DNA of 64,000 nucleotides. Source: Alkalispirillum mobile (GTDB lineage Bacteria > Pseudomonadota > Gammaproteobacteria > Nitrococcales > Halorhodospiraceae). The notes under the pieces were generated by a model, which saw only the letters and a program-made list of their open reading frames with translations, made no database searches and had not been told where the DNA came from. Location of the stretch: the NCBI RefSeq assembly GCF_003664325.1, contig NZ_RCDA01000001.1, forward strand, positions 744,001 to 808,000, read 5' to 3'. Position numbers and translations under genes: made by a program. The number at the start of each line of letters is the position of its first letter. Position 1 is the first letter of the stretch. Positions 4,111 through 55,654 of the stretch are shown one piece after another.

Positions 4111-4315
4111 CAGAGTCTCCTTGTTGTCTTACGTTGACCGCCCACCGAGCCCGGTCTATGCCCCATGCAGGGCCATATTGCGCGGGCCCGGAAAACCAAG
4201 CGTGCATTCACAACACTAGCACACCGTCGGGCGAAACATGCCAGTCAGCCTTGAAAAGGGACATCGCGAAATCCCTCGCCGTGGATTAGGCTTTACCGGG
4301 AGTGCACTTTATAGT

Positions 4316-4331
4316 TTATGCTGATGCATAA
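4316..4331. promoter_or_regulatory. Inverted repeat in the dctP/dctQ divergent intergenic region
   Basis: TTATGC-TGAT-GCATAA, a perfect 6-base-arm inverted repeat about 38 bases before the dctQ start. It sits inside the AT-rich end of the 258-base region that must hold the promoters for dctP and dctQM. This is a candidate regulator site. I could not fix a clear -35/-10 pair on either strand. Confidence 0.35.
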
Positions 4332-4368
4332 GAACAACTTCACACTATAAGGGTGGCAGTCATAGCGC

Positions 4369-34988: not shown

Positions 34989-35465
34989 TTAGCGGGCGAT
35001 GGTGTTCGTGGTGCGAATCTTCTTCTGCAGCGCAATGATGCCCCAGAGCAGGGCCTCGGCCGTGGGCGGGCAACCCGGGACATAGACGTCCACCGGGACC
35101 ACCCGGTCACAACCGCGCACTACAGAATAGGAGTAATGGTAGTAGCCGCCGCCGTTGGCGCAGGAACCCATGGAGATCACCCAACGGGGCTCCGGCATCT
35201 GGTCGTAAACCTTGCGCAGCGCTGGCGCCATCTTGTTGCAGAGGGTACCGGCCACCACCATGACATCGGACTGGCGCGGACTGGGCCGGAAGATTACGCC
35301 GAACCGGTCCATGTCGTAGCGGGCCGCGCCAGCGTGCATCATCTCCACCGCGCAGCACGCCAGACCGAAGGTCATCGGCCACAAGGAGCCGGTGCGGGCC
35401 CAGTTGATAACCTTGTCAGCCGAAGTGGTGACAAAGCCCTTCTCGAGCAGGCCTTCTACTCCCAT
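34989..35465 (-). CDS. nuoB: NADH-quinone oxidoreductase subunit B (cluster N2)
   Basis: Carries the terminal [4Fe-4S] cluster N2 that reduces quinone. 158 residues from the ATG at 35465 ([12 protein letters not shown]). N2 ligands are visible: adjacent cysteines in [11 protein letters not shown], Cys in [17 protein letters not shown] and Cys in [12 protein letters not shown]. It overlaps nuoA by 10 bases and precedes nuoC by 10 bases. Confidence 0.98.
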
Positions 35466-35812
35466 TCCAGCGCCCCCTTCTTCCACTCATAGAGGAAGCC
35501 GATCAGCAGCAGGCCGATGAACAGCGCCATCGACAGGATGCCGAACATGCCGATATCGTCCAGAACGATCGCCCACGGGAAAAGGAAGGCAATCTCCAGA
35601 TCGAAGATAATGAACAGGATGGCCACCAAGTAATAACGCACATCGAATTTCATGCGCGAATCTTCGAATGCCTCAAAACCGCATTCGTAGGGGGAGAGCT
35701 TCTCCGCATCCGGCTTAGAGGGCGCCAGGAGGAACCCTGCAACCAGAAAGACCATCCCGAATAAAAGCCCAAAGATGATGAAGACCAGAATGGGCAGATA
35801 GTTTTCCAGCAT
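35456..35812 (-). CDS. nuoA: NADH-quinone oxidoreductase subunit A
   Basis: First gene of the operon, a three-helix membrane subunit of 118 residues. Signatures: [41 protein letters not shown], seen here as consecutive short blocks, with the conserved Cys in the E-C-G-F loop and the Asp/Glu of D-L-E-I. A 137-base leader separates it from the upstream tRNA-Leu; I saw hairpins but no convincing separate promoter or terminator in that leader. Confidence 0.97.
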
Positions 35813-35949
35813 CTAGACTCGCCTCTCTGCTGGTTGCCCCGACCGGCCCCTTGCGAGGCCGGCCACCCTGGGGCTGCTCCCCGACCGGTATTGGTTGTTC
35901 GCCCGCAGCGGGCGGTGGCCGGGACTCTGTTCTTTTTATTGCTTGTATA

Positions 35950-48491: not shown

Positions 48492-49421
48492 ATGACCGCT
48501 CTTTCCCTTAGCCGCATTAGCAAGACCTACGACGATGGCACCGTCGCGCTCAGCGATATCAACCTGAACGTCAGCAAGGGCGAATTCTTTGGCCTGCTCG
48601 GACCCAACGGTGCCGGCAAGTCCACGCTCATCGGCATTGTCAGCTCGCTGGTCCGAAAAAGCACCGGCCAGGTCCGTGTATTCGGCCACGACCTGGACCG
48701 CGATCCCTGGGGGGCGAAATGCAACCTGGGGCTCGTGCCGCAGGAGTTCAACTTCAACAACTTCGAGACCGTTGAGCAGATCCTGCTCAACCAGGCGGGC
48801 TATTACGGCGTGCCGCGGCGCCAGGCCCGCGGCCGCGCCGAGAAGTACCTCAAGGCGCTCGGCCTGTGGGACAAGCGGAACACGGTGTCGCGCAACCTCT
48901 CCGGCGGCATGAAGCGCCGCCTGATGATTGCCCGCGCCCTGGTCCACGAGCCGGGGCTGCTTATCCTGGACGAGCCCACCGCCGGGGTGGATATCGAACT
49001 GCGCCGCTCCATGTGGGACTTTTTGCGCTACATCAATGACGAGGGGGTCACGATCATCCTGACCACCCACTACCTGGAGGAGGCGGAGAGCCTCTGCCGG
49101 AACCTGGCGATCATCGATGGCGGGCGCATCATCGAAAACACGGATGTGCGCACCCTGCTACGTAGCCTCTCCACGCACACGTTCATTCTCGACCTGGTCG
49201 CGCCGCCGGACCACCTGCCGGAGGTGAGCGGCGGCTACCGGTTGAAAACGCTCGATGACCACACCCTCGAGGTAGAGGTGGACCGCCACAACAACCTGAC
49301 GGAATTGTTCGCCCAGCTCGATGAGGCGGGCATCCGCGTGGCCAGCATGAAGAACAAGGCCAACCGGCTGGAAGAGACCTTTGTCCGGCTGGTGCAGAAG
49401 GAGGAGCACCAAGGTGCATAG
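48492..49421 (+). CDS. yadG: ABC transporter ATP-binding protein (YadG-like)
   Basis: ATPase of an ABC-2 type exporter, 309 residues. Walker A GPNGAGKST, signature NLSGGMKRRLMIARAL, Walker B LLILDEPTAGVD and switch His in TTHYLEEAE are intact. The C-terminal extension after about residue 220 (LDLVAPPDHLPEVSGGY..) is the regulatory part seen in drug or polysaccharide exporters. The ATG at 48492 follows AAGGGG. It overlaps the permease start by 8 bases. Substrate unknown. It is divergent from carA. Confidence 0.93.
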   Translation: MTALSLSRISKTYDDGTVALSDINLNVSKGEFFGLLGPNGAGKSTLIGIVSSLVRKSTGQVRVFGHDLDRDPWGAKCNLGLVPQEFNFNNFETVEQILLNQAGYYGVPRRQARGRAEKYLKALGLWDKRNTVSRNLSGGMKRRLMIARALVHEPGLLILDEPTAGVDIELRRSMWDFLRYINDEGVTIILTTHYLEEAESLCRNLAIIDGGRIIENTDVRTLLRSLSTHTFILDLVAPPDHLPEVSGGYRLKTLDDHTLEVEVDRHNNLTELFAQLDEAGIRVASMKNKANRLEETFVRLVQKEEHQGA

Positions 49422-50196
49422 CTCGCAATTCTCGCGTTCACTGATCTCGCTGCAGACCCTCGCCTGGAAGGAAACGCACCGGTACCTGCGCATCTGGGTG
49501 CAAACCCTGGTGCCACCGGCGATCACGATGACGCTCTATTTCGTGATCTTCGGCAATCTGATTGGCCCGCGCATCGGTCCCATGGAGGGGTATTCCTACA
49601 TGGAGTACATCGCGCCGGGGATCATCATGATGGCCGTGATCACGAACAGTTACTCCAACGTGGTCTCCTCCTTCTTCGGGGCCAAGTTTCAGCACCACAT
49701 CGAGGAAGTGCTGGTCTCACCCACGCCGAATTACATCATTTTGCTCGGTTACGTGGCCGGCGGGGTGGGCCGCGGACTGCTCACGGGGCTCATCGTGACC
49801 ATCGTTGCCCTGTTTTTCACCCGCCTGCCGATCCACAACCTGTTCATTACCATATCGGTGGTCTTTCTGACGGCCGTGCTGTTCTCGCTCGGCGGGTTCA
49901 TCAACGCAGTATTTGCGCGCAAGTTCGACGATATTGCGCTGGTGCCGACCTTTATCCTGACCCCCCTGACCTACCTCGGTGGCGTGTTCTATTCCATCAC
50001 CCTGCTCCCCGATTTCTGGCAGGGAGTCTCCATGGCGAACCCCATACTGCATATGGTCAATGCCTTCCGCTACGGCATATTGGGGCAATCCGATATCCAC
50101 ATCATCACCGCCTACAGCCTGATCCTGGGGTTCATCGTGCTCCTCGGAAGTATTAGCCTGTGGTTATTGCACCGCGGCACCGGGCTGAGGAGCTGA
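49414..50196 (+). CDS. yadH: ABC-2 type transporter permease (YadH-like)
   Basis: Membrane partner of the preceding ATPase, 260 residues, six hydrophobic segments. The ABC-2 signature region is FGAKFQHHIEEVLVSPTPNY followed by GYVAGGVGRGLLTGLIV, with the later TPLTYLGGVFYSITLLP and MVNAFRYGILG. I chose the GTG at 49414, preceded by AAGGAGGAG at a good distance; an earlier in-frame ATG lies within yadG. With YadG it forms a half-size exporter of unknown substrate. Confidence 0.92.
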   Translation: MHSSQFSRSLISLQTLAWKETHRYLRIWVQTLVPPAITMTLYFVIFGNLIGPRIGPMEGYSYMEYIAPGIIMMAVITNSYSNVVSSFFGAKFQHHIEEVLVSPTPNYIILLGYVAGGVGRGLLTGLIVTIVALFFTRLPIHNLFITISVVFLTAVLFSLGGFINAVFARKFDDIALVPTFILTPLTYLGGVFYSITLLPDFWQGVSMANPILHMVNAFRYGILGQSDIHIITAYSLILGFIVLLGSISLWLLHRGTGLRS

Positions 50197-50200
50197 TGCC

Positions 50201-51544
50201 ATGGACCCCATGCGTTCACCCTTGCTGACCGACCTCTACCAGCTGACCATGCTGGAGAGCTACTACGAGCGCGGCATGGTGGCGCCGGCAACCTTTGAGC
50301 TCTACGCCCGGAAGCTGCCCCCGCATTGCGGCTACCTGGTAGCCGCCGGGCTGGCGCAGGCGCTGGAATGGCTGGAACACGCCCGGTTCGGGCCGGACGA
50401 GCTTGAATGGCTGGAACAGAGCGGGCTTTTCAAGCCCGCCTTTCTGGACCGATTGGCAGACTGGCGTTTTACCGGCGAGGTACACGCCCTGCCCGAGGGG
50501 ACCGCCGTGTTCCCGGATGAGCCGATCATCCAGGTCACCGCCCCGCTACCGGAGGCCCAGCTGGTGGAAAGCCGGCTGATGAATCTGCTCCAGTTCCAGA
50601 CCCTTGTTGCCACTCGGGCAGCGCGGGTCGTGGACGCCGCGCAAGGGCGCCGCGTGGTGGATTTCGGTATGCGCCGGGCCCACGGCGCCGAGGCCGCGAT
50701 GTTCGCCGCCCGGGCCAGCTACCTGGCCGGCTTCGACGCCACGGCCACAGTCCTCGCCGGGGCCGAATACGGCATCCCGGTGACCGGCACCATGGCGCAC
50801 TCTTACATTCTGGCGTTCGCCGAGGAGATGGAAGCCTTCAAGGCCTTCCTGGAGGCCCATCCCGACAAGGCCGTACTGCTGATCGACACCTACGACACCG
50901 AGGCCGGTGCAGACAAGGTGGTTGCCCTCGCCCAGCAGGGGCTCAAGGCATCGGCGGTCCGCCTCGACAGCGGGGACCTGGCCGACCACGCCCACCGCGT
51001 CCGCCGGATCCTCGACCAGGGCGGTTTACAGGAGACGTTGATCCTGGCCAGTGGTGATCTGGATGAGTACGCTGTGGCGGCGATGGTCGCCGCCGGCGTC
51101 CCCATCGACGGCTTCGGCCTGGGCACCCGGATCGACACCGCCGCCGAGCAGCCCTTCCTGGAATGCGCCTACAAGCTGATGGCCTACGAGGAACTGCCCC
51201 GACGCAAGCGCTCAGAGGGCAAGGGGCACTGGGCCGGCCGCAAGCAATTCTGGCGCAGCCACGACGCGCAAGGGCGGGTCAGCGGAGACCGGCTGGGCCT
51301 GGCAGACGAGCAGCCGGCACCCGACGGGCAGCCGATGCTGGAGCGAGTCATGCTCGACGGCCGGCCGCTGCAGGCGCCGGAACACCTGGATACCATTCGC
51401 GAGCGCACCCGGAAGAGCATCCAGGCCCTGCCAGCCCTGTGCCGGGACCTGCATGACCCCACGCCGGTGCCGGTAACACCGACCCGCGCACTGAAAGCCG
51501 CGGCCCGGGAGGCGGACCGAATCACCGGTTATTGCAGCGAATGA
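50201..51544 (+). CDS. pncB: Nicotinate phosphoribosyltransferase
   Basis: First step of the Preiss-Handler salvage: nicotinate plus PRPP to nicotinate mononucleotide, driven by ATP. 447 residues. Landmarks: LLTDLYQLTMLESY at the N terminus, FGMRRAHGAEAAMFAARA with the conserved His that is phosphorylated in the family, TGTMAHSYILAF, LIDTYDTEAGA and VRLDSGDLADHA for PRPP/nicotinate binding, and GFGLGTRIDTA. The ATG lies 5 bases after the permease stop with AGGAG upstream, so it may share the exporter transcript. A hairpin follows. Confidence 0.94.
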   Translation: MDPMRSPLLTDLYQLTMLESYYERGMVAPATFELYARKLPPHCGYLVAAGLAQALEWLEHARFGPDELEWLEQSGLFKPAFLDRLADWRFTGEVHALPEGTAVFPDEPIIQVTAPLPEAQLVESRLMNLLQFQTLVATRAARVVDAAQGRRVVDFGMRRAHGAEAAMFAARASYLAGFDATATVLAGAEYGIPVTGTMAHSYILAFAEEMEAFKAFLEAHPDKAVLLIDTYDTEAGADKVVALAQQGLKASAVRLDSGDLADHAHRVRRILDQGGLQETLILASGDLDEYAVAAMVAAGVPIDGFGLGTRIDTAAEQPFLECAYKLMAYEELPRRKRSEGKGHWAGRKQFWRSHDAQGRVSGDRLGLADEQPAPDGQPMLERVMLDGRPLQAPEHLDTIRERTRKSIQALPALCRDLHDPTPVPVTPTRALKAAAREADRITGYCSE

Positions 51545-51562
51545 GCCCGCCCCAAACCAATT

Positions 51563-51589
51563 GGGGGCCACCCATTACGGGCAGCCCCC
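51563..51589. terminator. Hairpin between pncB and the H-NS-like gene
   Basis: GGGGGC..CCC..GGG..GCCCCC interrupted stem with a 5-base loop, in the convergent 72-base space. Only a weak T-rich stretch follows (ATTA), so efficiency is uncertain. It may serve both converging genes. Confidence 0.45.
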
Positions 51590-51616
51590 ATTAGCGACGC
51601 GGTGAGCGAACCCCGC

Positions 51617-51934
51617 TCAGCTGACGCGCAATTCGTCGATATCGCGCCCCTGCTGCTCCCACTCGTTGATCCAGCGCGGGCGACGCCCCCGACCGGACCA
51701 GGTCTTGGAGGGGTCTTCCGGGTGCTGGTAAACGGCCTTGGCCTTGGCCTTCTGACCGCCACCCGTGGAGGCATTCCCCACCAGTTCGTTGAGGGAGAAA
51801 CCATACTTATCGGCCACCGCCTTCAATTCACGCTGCGCCTCTTTCGCCTGCTGCTTACGGCGTTGACGAACCTCGCGTTCGATGTCGGTTTTGAGTTTGT
51901 TCAGCTCGCTGATCGAGTAGCCGGAAAGGTCCAT
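51617..51934 (-). CDS. H-NS family nucleoid protein (BpH3-type)
   Basis: A 105-residue nucleoid-associated DNA-binding protein. The N-terminal half is a coiled-coil oligomerisation region (DLSGYSISELNKLKTDIERE, then a basic Arg/Gln/Lys stretch). The C-terminal DNA-binding loop TWSGRGRRPRWINEW has the G-R-G-x-x-P-R-W form of the Bordetella/Burkholderia BpH3 branch rather than the enteric TWTGQGR form. The ATG at 51934 follows AGGAG. A well-formed promoter lies 64 bases upstream. It probably binds AT-rich or acquired DNA; targets cannot be told here. Confidence 0.9.
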   Translation of the reverse strand: MDLSGYSISELNKLKTDIEREVRQRRKQQAKEAQRELKAVADKYGFSLNELVGNASTGGGQKAKAKAVYQHPEDPSKTWSGRGRRPRWINEWEQQGRDIDELRVS

Positions 51935-52295
51935 TGGATCTCCTCTTGGGAAAAGTTGTCTCGGTTCTAAAAACGGCACGATCCTTCGTTATCGCGCATT
52001 TTATGGCAGCCTTTTGGGTTTCGCAACAAATCCGGTTACGGCCCATTCCCGCTATTCCCCGTTTAATGCGACGTGGTGCAACAAATGGGGCGCTCTGTTG
52101 TCACAATCATTCATCGTCTATCAATCTGACTATGCCCTGCGCCAATTTGACGCGCAGCGGGGCTTTTCGTGCCACTTTTGGGCCGCGGTATTGGCGTATA
52201 AACCGGCGGACCATTCATTCCCGTGGACGTGGCAGCCCCGCATCTGCAAGAATTGCCCGCTCAGATTCCGAGCCACCGAGAAGAAGGCCCTGATC
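51935..52295. other. 361-base divergent intergenic region
   Basis: Separates the H-NS-like gene from the unrecognised 406-residue gene. It is visibly less GC-rich than the coding DNA around it. It holds the H-NS promoter. Plus-strand TTGTCA near 52099 and TTGACG near 52148 resemble -35 elements, but no good -10 follows either. The plus-strand frame is open through the region from about 52014 but its composition does not look coding. Confidence 0.5.
51998..52026 (-). promoter_or_regulatory. Sigma-70-type promoter of the H-NS-like gene
   Basis: TTGCGA (52021-52026), a 17-base spacer, TAAAAT (51998-52003) on the minus strand, giving a leader of about 55 nt before the ATG at 51934. Confidence 0.6.
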
Positions 52296-53516
52296 ATGTC
52301 CAGCCAGCTGTCCGCCATCGCCGCCGTTCTCACCGTGGAATTAGCCCCGGACGCCGTGGCCCAGGGGTATCGACCGCCGCAACCGCTGGAGCGCGACCGC
52401 GGCGAGGAGTTGGCGTGGGCATTGGCAGCGGATCTGCAGGGGGTATTGGGCGACCTGCAGGAATACGGCCTGGTCCTCCCGGCCGCCCTTTACGACCTCA
52501 CCGAGTTGCTGCGCCCGGGGCTGCCCATGGTGGAGATTCTGATGGAACTCTACCGCGGCGGCCTGCGCGGCGGCCCCTTCCAGCCACAACTGATGGCCAT
52601 CGGGGCCCACGAGGGTCATTGGCCGGTGGCAACCATCGCCCCCGAGCGCAGCCCCGGGGCTGGCCCCATGCTGGGCCTCCCGTTGGTCTTTGTCGGACCG
52701 GCTGAGTCCATGCCGGACCTGGAGCAGCGACTGGAAACCAACCTGTTGGAAAAAGGCCGCGCCGGCCTGCGCACCCGCGAGTTGATGGAGCAGGACTTCC
52801 AGGTGCCGGCCGTGAACCTGGCGTACGCCACCTTCAATGACCTCTGTGCCATGCTCCGGCTGCAACTCCAACAGCACGGCTTCGCCGAGCTCTGGGCGTT
52901 GCTGGAGGGTGCCCTGTTCCACAGCGACCGGCGCCAGGTAACCCGGCTGGACAGCGGCAATGCCTTTTGGCTGGACCAGGGCCGGGCCCTCACGCCCTTT
53001 CACACCCTGGCCACCTGGCAGACCGAGCACGGCAGCGGGATCGAAGGGTACGCGGAGTGGTTGCGGGTGCAGCGCCAGTACATGGCCGGTCTGGGCGCTC
53101 ACGGGCTGCAGGTCCTGCCCTGCCAGGCGGATCCGGCGCTGGCCGGGGCCTGCGCCAACAAGGGCGTGGCCCTGCTGGAGGAGCGGGCGATTCGCGGTGG
53201 GGAACGTCTGCGCGAGGAGCCCGTCAGCGGTGGCAACGGCGACGTGAAGGCCGCCAGCGTGCTGACCCTCACCGAGCAGCTGATCCCGGACCTGGGCCCG
53301 ATCGCCTACACGGCGGAGCTGCGCGACGCCTCCGGCCGCCTGCTACGCCAGGCCCACGACTACCCGTTGCACCCGGGCGCACTGCAGCAGATTCAGTCGG
53401 ACTGGGAGGCCCAGGCCAGCGCCCTGGGCGTCCCGTTCAAGCTGCTGCGGCCGGGTGAGGTACTCACCGAGGCCGACAACCCGGCGCAATTGCGCGGCCA
53501 GTGGCCTACGGATTGA
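52296..53516 (+). CDS. Unrecognised 406-residue soluble protein
   Basis: I do not recognise this protein. From the ATG at 52296 (GAAGG about 9 bases upstream) it is 406 residues with no signal peptide and no membrane helix. The N-terminal third is alpha-helical and Leu/Ala/Glu-rich (ELAWALAADLQGVLGDLQEY, then LPMVEILMELYRGGLRGG). The centre contains short hydrophobic strands such as GLPLVFVGPAESM and a helical block TFNDLCAMLRLQLQQHGF. The C-terminal half has a mixed pattern (LTEQLIPDLGPIAYTAELRD). No catalytic motif stands out. Coding is supported by high third-position GC and a stop overlapping convergent pdxH by 11 bases. The frame is open 94 codons further upstream, but that part looks non-coding. 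Confidence 0.75.
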   Translation: MSSQLSAIAAVLTVELAPDAVAQGYRPPQPLERDRGEELAWALAADLQGVLGDLQEYGLVLPAALYDLTELLRPGLPMVEILMELYRGGLRGGPFQPQLMAIGAHEGHWPVATIAPERSPGAGPMLGLPLVFVGPAESMPDLEQRLETNLLEKGRAGLRTRELMEQDFQVPAVNLAYATFNDLCAMLRLQLQQHGFAELWALLEGALFHSDRRQVTRLDSGNAFWLDQGRALTPFHTLATWQTEHGSGIEGYAEWLRVQRQYMAGLGAHGLQVLPCQADPALAGACANKGVALLEERAIRGGERLREEPVSGGNGDVKAASVLTLTEQLIPDLGPIAYTAELRDASGRLLRQAHDYPLHPGALQQIQSDWEAQASALGVPFKLLRPGEVLTEADNPAQLRGQWPTD

Positions 53517-54096
53517 GCAACCGGTAGGCCCAGCCCTCGGCGGTGTGTTCGTACACATCCCGCTCATGGAGTCGCCCGGGCCGGGCCCGCCAGAACTCGA
53601 TACGCACCGGTGCCAGCCGGTAACCGGACCAGTGCGGCGGGCGGGGCACCGGCTCGCCTTCCGGGAAGCGGGCCGCGTACTCCGCGACCCGCTGTTCGAG
53701 CACCTCCCGCGTCTCCAGGGCGGCCGATTGCTGCGAGGCCCAACCGCCGATCTGGCTCTCACGCGGCCGACTGGCCCAGTACGCATCCGCCTCCGATTCC
53801 GCCACCGGCGTTACCACGCCTTCGATGACCACCTGCTCGGCCAACGGCGCCCAGTGGAAACACAACGCCGCCCGAGGGTTTTCCGCCAACGCCCTGCCCT
53901 TGCGGCTGTGGCGGTTGGTATAAAAGGTAAAACCGAGCTCGTCGTACCCCTTCAACAGCACCGTCCGCACCTGCGGCCAGCCGGTAGCCCCGCAGGTAGC
54001 CAGGCTGACCGCGGTGTGATCGACCACATCCGCTGCCTCCGCCGCCCGCCCGTAGATCGCCCCAAAGCGGCTCAGCGCCTCTTTCAGTAGCTGCAT
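53506..54096 (-). CDS. pdxH: Pyridoxamine 5'-phosphate oxidase
   Basis: FMN enzyme making pyridoxal 5'-phosphate from pyridoxamine/pyridoxine phosphate. 196 residues, about 15-20 shorter at the N terminus than E. coli PdxH. Diagnostic sites are present: TVLLKGYDELGFTFYTNRHS (FMN binding), RPRESQIGGWASQQS and the C-terminal RPPHWSGYRL..EFWRARPGRLHER. The ATG at 54096 has AAGGAAGAGG upstream. It converges on the unrecognised gene with an 11-base overlap of stops. Confidence 0.93.
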   Translation of the reverse strand: MQLLKEALSRFGAIYGRAAEAADVVDHTAVSLATCGATGWPQVRTVLLKGYDELGFTFYTNRHSRKGRALAENPRAALCFHWAPLAEQVVIEGVVTPVAESEADAYWASRPRESQIGGWASQQSAALETREVLEQRVAEYAARFPEGEPVPRPPHWSGYRLAPVRIEFWRARPGRLHERDVYEHTAEGWAYRLLNP

Positions 54097-54159: not shown

Positions 54160-55572
54160 TCAGGTGTGCTGCAGGCCCTCGTGGTGGCTCACGGATTCCG
54201 CCGGCGCGACGCGGACGGTCAGACCCTCCATGTCCACCACCACCAGTTGCTGCCCGGCCTGCACCGGCTCGTCGGAGATCGCATTCCAGAGCTCACCCTG
54301 GATCCGCACCCGGCCGTGGTCCTCGAAATCGGAGAACGCCTCGCAACGGGCCCCGATGATGTTGTCACGACCGCCCTTGCGCGGCCGTCGCCACGCCCTC
54401 AGGGCCATGGTGGCAATGCCCAGCACCACAATCAGGCTGGCGACACCGAAGCCGACGATTATACCGATGGAGACCTGGAAGCCCTCCACGTCGGTATCGA
54501 ACAGCATGATGGAGCCCAATATGAAGGCGATCACCCCCCCTATACCGAGTATGCCGAAACTGGGGGCAAAGGCCTCCGCCACCATAAAGCCGAGCCCGAG
54601 CAGAATGAGCGCCATCCCCGCGTAGCTGATCGGCAGGGCCTGGAAGGCGAACAGCGCCAGTAACAGGCAGATGGCACCCAGCACGCCCGGCACCAGGCTC
54701 CCCGGGTTCATCAATTCGAAGATAATGCCGTAAATGCCGATCAGCATCAGCATGTAGGCCACGTTCGGGTTGGTAAGCACGGACAGCAGCTGAGTGCGCC
54801 AGTCCGGCTCGATGACCTCCAGCGTGGCGCCGGCGGTATCCAGGGTCACGTCGCCGCGGCTGGTCTGCACCGTGCGCCCGTCCATCGCTTCGAGCAGCGA
54901 CTCCAGGTTAGACACCCGGTGTTCTATCACGCCCAGCTCCAGTGCTTCGCTGGAACTGGCACTGGCCGCCTCGCGCACCGCCTTCTCGGCCCAGTCCGCG
55001 TTGCGGTCACGCAGTTCGGCCAGCCCGCGGATGTACGAGACCGCATCTTCCAAGACCTTGCGCTCGGTGGCGGAGCCGGCGGGAGTCCGGTCCGGACGCT
55101 CCTCGCCCTCCTCTTCCTCACCATTGGCCGCCCCGTTGGCATCGTCCTCTTCTTCATCATCACCCATGCCGGGCAAACCGCCGCCCCCACCGATCTGCAC
55201 GGGGGTCGCCGCGCCCAGGTTGGTCGCGGGCGCCATGGCTGCCACGTGCGAGGCGTAGAGGATGTAGGTGCCGGCACTGGCCGCCCGAGCACCCTCCGGC
55301 CCCACCCAGGTGGCCACCGGCACCGGAGAGCCGAGGATGTTCTTGATGATCTCGCGCATGGCGCTGTCCAGCCCGCCCGGCGTATCCATGCGCAGGATGA
55401 CCACCTCGGCCTCCCTCTCCTCGGCCTGCTGGAGGCCGCGCTCAATGTAATGGCTGGTGGCCGGGCCAATGGGGCCGTCCACCTCCAGCACGAGGGCCAG
55501 ACGGTCCGCCCCGGCGCCCAGGGGCAATGCCGAAGCCAGATAGAGCAGAAAGACGGCGAGAATCTTTTTCAT
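54160..55572 (-). CDS. nfeD: NfeD-family membrane-bound serine protease
   Basis: Long-form NfeD (NfeD1b), 470 residues. Signal peptide MKKILAVFLLYLASALPLGAGA, then a periplasmic ClpP-like protease domain with MDTPGGLDSAMREIIKNI and the catalytic Ser in ARAASAGTYILYASH. A strongly acidic insertion of about 40 residues (DDEEEDDANG.., EEEEGEERPD..) follows. Four or five membrane helices (from YMLMLIGIYGIIFELM onward) and a C-terminal OB-fold end it. I chose the ATG at 55572; a TTG four codons upstream sits too close to its GAGGGG. Long-form nfeD usually sits next to a stomatin/SPFH gene; none is adjacent here. Confidence 0.88.
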   Translation of the reverse strand: MKKILAVFLLYLASALPLGAGADRLALVLEVDGPIGPATSHYIERGLQQAEEREAEVVILRMDTPGGLDSAMREIIKNILGSPVPVATWVGPEGARAASAGTYILYASHVAAMAPATNLGAATPVQIGGGGGLPGMGDDEEEDDANGAANGEEEEGEERPDRTPAGSATERKVLEDAVSYIRGLAELRDRNADWAEKAVREAASASSSEALELGVIEHRVSNLESLLEAMDGRTVQTSRGDVTLDTAGATLEVIEPDWRTQLLSVLTNPNVAYMLMLIGIYGIIFELMNPGSLVPGVLGAICLLLALFAFQALPISYAGMALILLGLGFMVAEAFAPSFGILGIGGVIAFILGSIMLFDTDVEGFQVSIGIIVGFGVASLIVVLGIATMALRAWRRPRKGGRDNIIGARCEAFSDFEDHGRVRIQGELWNAISDEPVQAGQQLVVVDMEGLTVRVAPAESVSHHEGLQHT

Positions 55573-55654
55573 GGCAGTAATCAAGACCCCTCAGGCTCAC
55601 TGGACGTGCCTCTGTACAAGGTGAGACATCACCCGGGCGGCCGGTGTTCGGTTA

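Follow-up and report, generated by a model that had tools for sequence, protein, structure and literature searches.

A 406-residue protein encoded back to back with hns in Alkalispirillum mobile belongs to an unnamed gammaproteobacterial family

The 406-residue protein studied here is encoded in a 64,000-nt stretch of Alkalispirillum mobile DNA (the window). It is a member of an unnamed gammaproteobacterial family and not an orphan, and its gene is near-core in its order. Its tentative description is that of an acidic cytosolic protein that possibly binds a ligand or a metal and is perhaps an enzyme, with a promoter in an AT-rich region shared with the only hns gene detected in the genome. The features of the locus, in window coordinates, are the following.

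48492–49421, + strand: ABC transporter ATPase, member of the recurring block (neighbourhood comparison and Pfam)
49381–50196, + strand: ABC-2 type permease, recurring, in 16 of 17 named loci of the order (neighbourhood comparison and Pfam)
50201–51544, + strand: pncB, nicotinate phosphoribosyltransferase, variable member of the block, in 9 of 17 named loci (Pfam and neighbour search)
51617–51934, - strand: H-NS family gene, hns (PF00816, Pfam E 7e-18; the sole match in the genome to that protein at E ≤ 0.001)
51935–52295, no strand: divergent intergenic region of 361 nt, 46.3% AT, with the presumed promoters of both genes (composition and gap scan)
52296–53516, + strand: focal gene, unnamed family, 406 aa, with an N-terminal core (~residues 1–299) and a C-terminal domain (~residues 300–406) (ORF, alignment of relatives and predicted structure)
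53506–54096, - strand: pdxH, pyridoxamine 5'-phosphate oxidase, convergent (ORF list and Pfam)
54160–55584, - strand: NfeD-type membrane protein, recurring, in 15 of 17 named loci (neighbourhood comparison and Pfam)

The initial annotation described the focal gene as clearly coding and its product as soluble, and both descriptions are borne out. The frame runs uninterrupted from the ATG at 52296 to the stop at 53516, with no internal stop codon, and its GC content per codon position (0.76/0.46/0.87) resembles that of the neighbour genes. The ATG at 52296 is the likely start, rather than the TTG at 52014 that opens a longer frame, because most relatives begin there; the start context MxxxLSATPAVLTVEL is common to most of the aligned relatives. 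Hydropathy reaches a maximum of 1.35 in a 19-residue window and the scan gives no sign of a membrane span. The protein is acidic (pI 4.9), as are its relatives, whose groups have median pI values of 4.74–5.18 when L081, a broken copy, is excluded. The gene converges with pdxH, with which it shares 11 nt at the ORF ends (53506–53516).

That no family could be assigned to the protein earlier is also confirmed. Neither Pfam nor NCBIfam returns a family for it at E ≤ 10, which holds also for the H-NS oligomerisation domain and for Hha, the similarities expected of H-NS antagonists of the Hha or truncated H-NS kind; the best PHROGs row (E 0.29) is at chance level. Further searches relied on three alignments: A1, made of the window protein and 17 of the 28 loci of its relatives (18 rows); A2, 17 chosen rows of wider range; and A3, the window core with 41 of the 80 named loci (42 rows). 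The best match among PDB sequences has an E of 0.051 (lipase A, residues 94–182), the A1 profile reaches 0.1 at best and the A3 profile has no row at E ≤ 10. Chance-level rows only were found when 18 members were compared with Pfam and PHROGs and 42 members with NCBIfam. No PADLOC model of anti-phage defence matches any of 18 members, window protein included, at E ≤ 1. Pfam finds no HTH domain in the window protein, and the single relative of 18 that touches one (HTH_58, E 0.19) does so at chance level. Four slices of the protein compared by hhalign reveal no internal duplication, the sole similarity being between two slices that share residues 190–212. A word search of titles and abstract openings gave nothing on the gene.

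Relatives are numerous. A single-sequence search found them in 28 of 40 related genomes and gave no match in the contigs of named genomes. The profile search of named genomes matched 216 stretches, of which 180 were listed and the best 80 kept as loci. Among the named carriers are Aquisalimonas, Arhodomonas, an uncultured Spiribacter, Candidatus Competibacter and Contendobacter, Plasticicumulans, Xanthomonas, Stenotrophomonas and Luteimonas. Among 15 pairs of relatives picked for closeness, a set that does not include the window copy, dN/dS is 0.055–0.183: the family is under purifying selection among relatives. These at least 180 related stretches, with the dN/dS values of the relatives, contradict the idea of a decaying gene devoid of homologues.

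Within the order, a profile search identifies the gene in 38 of 54 genomes and in 14 of 17 genera, with one copy per genome (in two pieces in G020). The 16 genomes that lack it make up exactly three genera: g2 (9/9), g3 (2/2) and g15 (5/5). Genus g10, whose genomes are small (1.2–2.2 Mb), has it in 14 of 14 assemblies, although one match is partial and lies where a contig ends; none of the other 11 genomes in the bacterial family of the window has it. Beyond the order its occurrence is patchy. With at most four candidates scored per listed genome, so that counts may be low, the gene was detected in at least 12 of 369 genomes in the class search (three from the order itself and one likely chance hit) and in at least 11 of 398 in the phylum search (two from the order, and nine that belong to two other families within the class). 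A match of 32 residues in G259 (E 5.7e-4) and a second weak match in G016 (E 2e-4) were discarded as chance. The breadth of this distribution and the recurring block described below do not fit the small accessory pocket in which the gene was first placed.

In a tree with 77 rows the relatives fall apart into their three taxonomic groups with the least possible number of changes (2). It was built without L081, L108 and L121; L115 is missing as well, presumably because its translation contains an unknown residue. The order's group has a support of 94/90, which is under the tool's starred level; inside that group the window copy sits on a long terminal branch, and its position is not starred. Two contigs, L099 (Synechococcaceae cyanobacterium) and L111 (Phycisphaerales bacterium), sit within the Competibacteraceae group and are probably misbinned. 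The relative from Alkalilimnicola ehrlichii strain AK92 (L081) is broken into two frames, which suggests an error of sequencing or assembly rather than decay because the adjoining pdxH is split too.

The gene order of the block is ABC ATPase, ABC-2 permease, sometimes pncB, hns, focal gene, pdxH and NfeD. Of the order's 17 named loci, 17 have hns within 4 kb of the focal gene, 16 the permease, 16 pdxH, 15 the NfeD gene and 9 pncB. In the neighbourhood comparison genes were called mechanically, and some were missed or mis-stranded (e.g., in L044, L045 and L127). Locus L073 has neither pdxH nor the NfeD gene within 4 kb, and an MFS transporter gene lies between the focal gene and pdxH in three loci. 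Parts of the block persist in the genera without the focal gene. Of four gene-less genomes read, two (G001, G002) keep the permease, pncB, hns or a fragment of it, pdxH and NfeD; pncB was not found in G006, and in G036 of g15 the search of 20 kb found only pdxH and NfeD. A full-length hns stands 308–325 nt from pdxH in g3 (2/2). In g2 (G001, G003, G005–G011; 9/9) only an N-terminal H-NS match (~residues 2–60) is found, 29–109 nt from pdxH (e.g., L175:3197–3349 and L177:5364–5531). A stop falls inside the match in two of these genomes and G007 is close to a contig end; the g2 matches may be remnants or truncated H-NS proteins of the antagonist kind. Since the sister genera retain block parts without the focal gene, its loss there is a simpler reading than its gain in the window.

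The claim that the gene diverges from an H-NS family gene across a 361-base AT-richer region is confirmed: the neighbour carries PF00816 and the AT content of the region is 46.3%, against 34.9% for the window. Only 14 of 3182 sliding windows of 361 nt are as AT-rich, and 10 of them overlap 51935–52295. This composition is not unique, because the gap 4111–4368, also divergent and second of the 10 mechanical gaps of at least 100 nt, nearly equals it (46.1% AT). Sliding composition and the gap list point to this gap and to ~35400–35900 as further AT-rich spots of the window. The pairing with hns recurs: wherever the upstream sequence suffices, in 25 of 25 loci with the window among them, the divergent neighbour is hns (two further loci end too close to the gene for this test and L023, the broken gene of G020, is left out). 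The space between the two genes is 110–596 nt and its AT content is above that of its own locus in 25/25. One sigma-70-like site was found in 51935–52295 and faces hns; none faces the focal gene. The stretch 51500–52500 has no Rfam match, and no common hairpin is obvious across the listing of the 25 intergenic regions. Note that a G+C-rich inverted repeat followed by TTTT is seen by eye on the + strand at 52130–52175, ~125 nt 5' of the focal ATG, where the scans are silent.

H-NS is discussed as repressing its own gene (negative autoregulation), which is also suggested for H-NS homologues (PMC7544231). Given this property and the shared AT-richer region, control of the focal gene by H-NS is plausible, also because hns is divergent in 25/25 loci. 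The promoter of the focal gene would lie in the AT-rich space that it shares with hns, where binding of H-NS would tune its expression in the order. The lack of a sigma-70-like site facing the focal gene and the equally AT-rich gap 4111–4368 argue against this half of the proposal, as does the lack of an H-NS match near the gene in the 62 loci of the two other lineages described below.

The proposed AlphaFold and Foldseek check gave a confident model of the core and no clear fold match in the PDB. The whole-protein model has a mean pLDDT of 88.5, and that of core 1–299 a pLDDT of 94.1 and a pTM of 0.88. The core features two alpha/beta lobes, ~1–181 and 190–299 (bounds taken from fold-aligned ranges), while the C-terminal part, seen in the whole model, is strand-rich with one long helix. 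In Foldseek searches of the PDB the lowest E is 0.023 with the whole model and 0.087 with the core, so that no row reaches E ≤ 0.001, and the same holds for the library of viral structure models, queried with the core; the C-terminal domain was fold-searched as part of the whole model. Fold scores stay at best Z values of 5.6 and 5.2; according to the tool's note, values below 8 do not indicate kinship and may mean a shared arrangement alone. The absence of a match is no proof of a new fold.

The highest of these scores aligns residues 305–396 with the double PH middle domain of the FACT subunit Spt16 (5umu_A; Z 5.6, rmsd 2.9, 71 residues), at 3% identity and under the evidence level. Residues 3–185 align weakly with ferredoxin-like folds (SEA, RAMP/Cas6, ACT), the best being 8gkl_E (Z 5.2, rmsd 3.8, 101 residues), probably the MUC16 SEA domain of an antibody entry. 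The SEA domain 7sa9_B (Z 4.8) and the Cas6/RAMP rows (Z 4.0–4.6) are also weak. With Z below 8 and sequence similarity not found, the likeness to ferredoxin-like folds is at most a common arrangement. RAMP/Cas6 ferredoxin-like RNA endonucleases have a glycine-rich loop and a CRISPR neighbourhood; CRISPR families are absent among 30 scanned neighbour proteins. Residues 195–289 align with the ADF/gelsolin fold (3ffk_A; Z 5.0, rmsd 3.1, 77 residues), again under the evidence level, and gelsolin-fold proteins are eukaryotic actin binders. Fold rows of HIV reverse transcriptase are not matches (TM near 0.13).

Two further groups of relatives lie outside the order. The Candidatus Competibacteraceae and Plasticicumulans proteins (33 loci) are full length (376–460 aa) and, over the best segment, 34–41% identical to the first row of A2. 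Their divergent neighbour differs from the hns of the order: it is an acyl-CoA dehydrogenase gene in 27/33 loci (27/30 of those with over 900 nt upstream), accompanied by MaoC where the contig reaches. The Xanthomonadaceae-type proteins (Xanthomonas, Stenotrophomonas, Luteimonas and others; 29 loci) have the N-terminal core in common with the focal protein, with 32–35% identity in the best segment to the same row, but 28 of the 29 have 259–295 aa and no C-terminal domain; the exception, L122, has 368 aa. They neighbour a thiolase gene (divergent in 28/29), often with SodC and hemX-hemY, and not hns as in the order. No H-NS match is found within 4 kb in the 62 loci of these two groups (tblastn, E ≤ 1e-8; three loci have less than 900 nt upstream), and none of 14 genes tested is a neighbour common to all three lineages.

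The protein was also first described as motif-poor, which does not agree with the charged residues conserved across the alignments. E15, D46, D67, E70, E147, D182, E204 and R260 are invariant in 42/42 rows of A3. D67 and E204 vary in A1 (18 rows). In A2 (17 rows) E15, D67 and R260 are invariant and the other five are kept in at least 90%, leaving E15 and R260 as the sole charged residues of the eight that are invariant in all three alignments. Together with the pI of 4.9, these residues suggest a binding or catalytic pocket, as far as can be judged from sequence. E15 and R260, always kept, and the other six, nearly always kept, would line a pocket for a ligand or a metal, and the protein would then be an enzyme or a small-molecule binding protein. 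The variation of D67 and E204 in A1 and the incomplete conservation of five of the eight residues in A2 count against a pocket, and no known enzyme motif or operon partner pointing to catalysis was found.

Several other roles have to be weighed against a ligand- or metal-binding protein. It is possible, and is put forward just as tentatively, that the protein is a non-catalytic scaffold or adaptor whose conserved residues stabilise the two-lobe fold and which acts through protein binding. The lack of an enzyme family and of a clear fold relative whose active site is known agrees with a scaffold, as do the lack of a neighbour common to the three lineages and the replacement of six of the eight charged residues in some relatives; however, the invariance of E15 and R260 and the near-invariance of the other six, at 26–50% identity to the window protein, exceed what most scaffolds need. 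A partner or modulator of H-NS, such as an acidic antagonist that tunes DNA-bound H-NS or sets it free and is encoded beside hns for balanced expression, appears unlikely. It would account for the divergent hns, the only one detected in the genome, for the acidic pI, for the g2 genomes in which the gene is missing and only the N-terminal H-NS match adjoins pdxH, and for FACT/Spt16 middle domains being the best C-terminal structural rows. The Z of these rows is, however, no evidence of kinship, the focal protein has no H-NS domain, the gene has no H-NS match nearby in the other two lineages, and g3 retains a full-length hns at the site without the focal gene. Less likely still is that these acidic proteins with their two lobes form a companion class of a new kind, modulating H-NS on DNA and encoded back to back with the main hns across most of the order, with the hns of this site shrunk to its N-terminal part in one genus that lost the companion.

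A similarly improbable role is that of a transcription regulator of the divergent neighbour, namely hns in the order and acyl-CoA dehydrogenase or thiolase elsewhere. The recurring association of each lineage with its own divergent partner (hns in 17/17 named loci of the order, and the two enzymes in the proportions given above) is what such a regulator would lead one to expect, but these partners are unrelated between lineages, no Pfam DNA-binding domain was found, and the pI is acidic in all three groups. The acyl-CoA dehydrogenase with MaoC, or the thiolase, as divergent neighbours in two lineages would also be in line with a function in fatty-acid beta-oxidation. This function is very unlikely: a related thiolase (E ≤ 1e-60) is absent from g10, where the gene is kept (14/14 genomes), and present in g15, where the gene is lacking (5/5), and the link fails in the order. 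In the companion search for acyl-CoA dehydrogenase the limit of E ≤ 1e-100 was too strict to discriminate. That the gene was recently acquired or is a decaying accessory gene is the least credible of these explanations, despite its absence from the 11 other genomes in the window's bacterial family, the broken copy in the draft of strain AK92 and the long end branch and unstarred position of the window row. Conserved neighbours, a tree that follows the taxonomic groups, the low dN/dS among relatives and the native codon composition all oppose it; searches for relatives on plasmids, phages or viral contigs found none, and the split pdxH of the AK92-type genome fits a sequencing error.

A family present in 14 of the 17 genera of an order has no model in the searched libraries, and a clear fold match is lacking too. 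Because the gene is paired with hns again and again, the question of co-regulation, or of joint work with the nucleoid protein, is directly testable. If there is no link to hns, the focal protein would be one of many conserved proteins without an assigned function, and worth a family entry and a structure.
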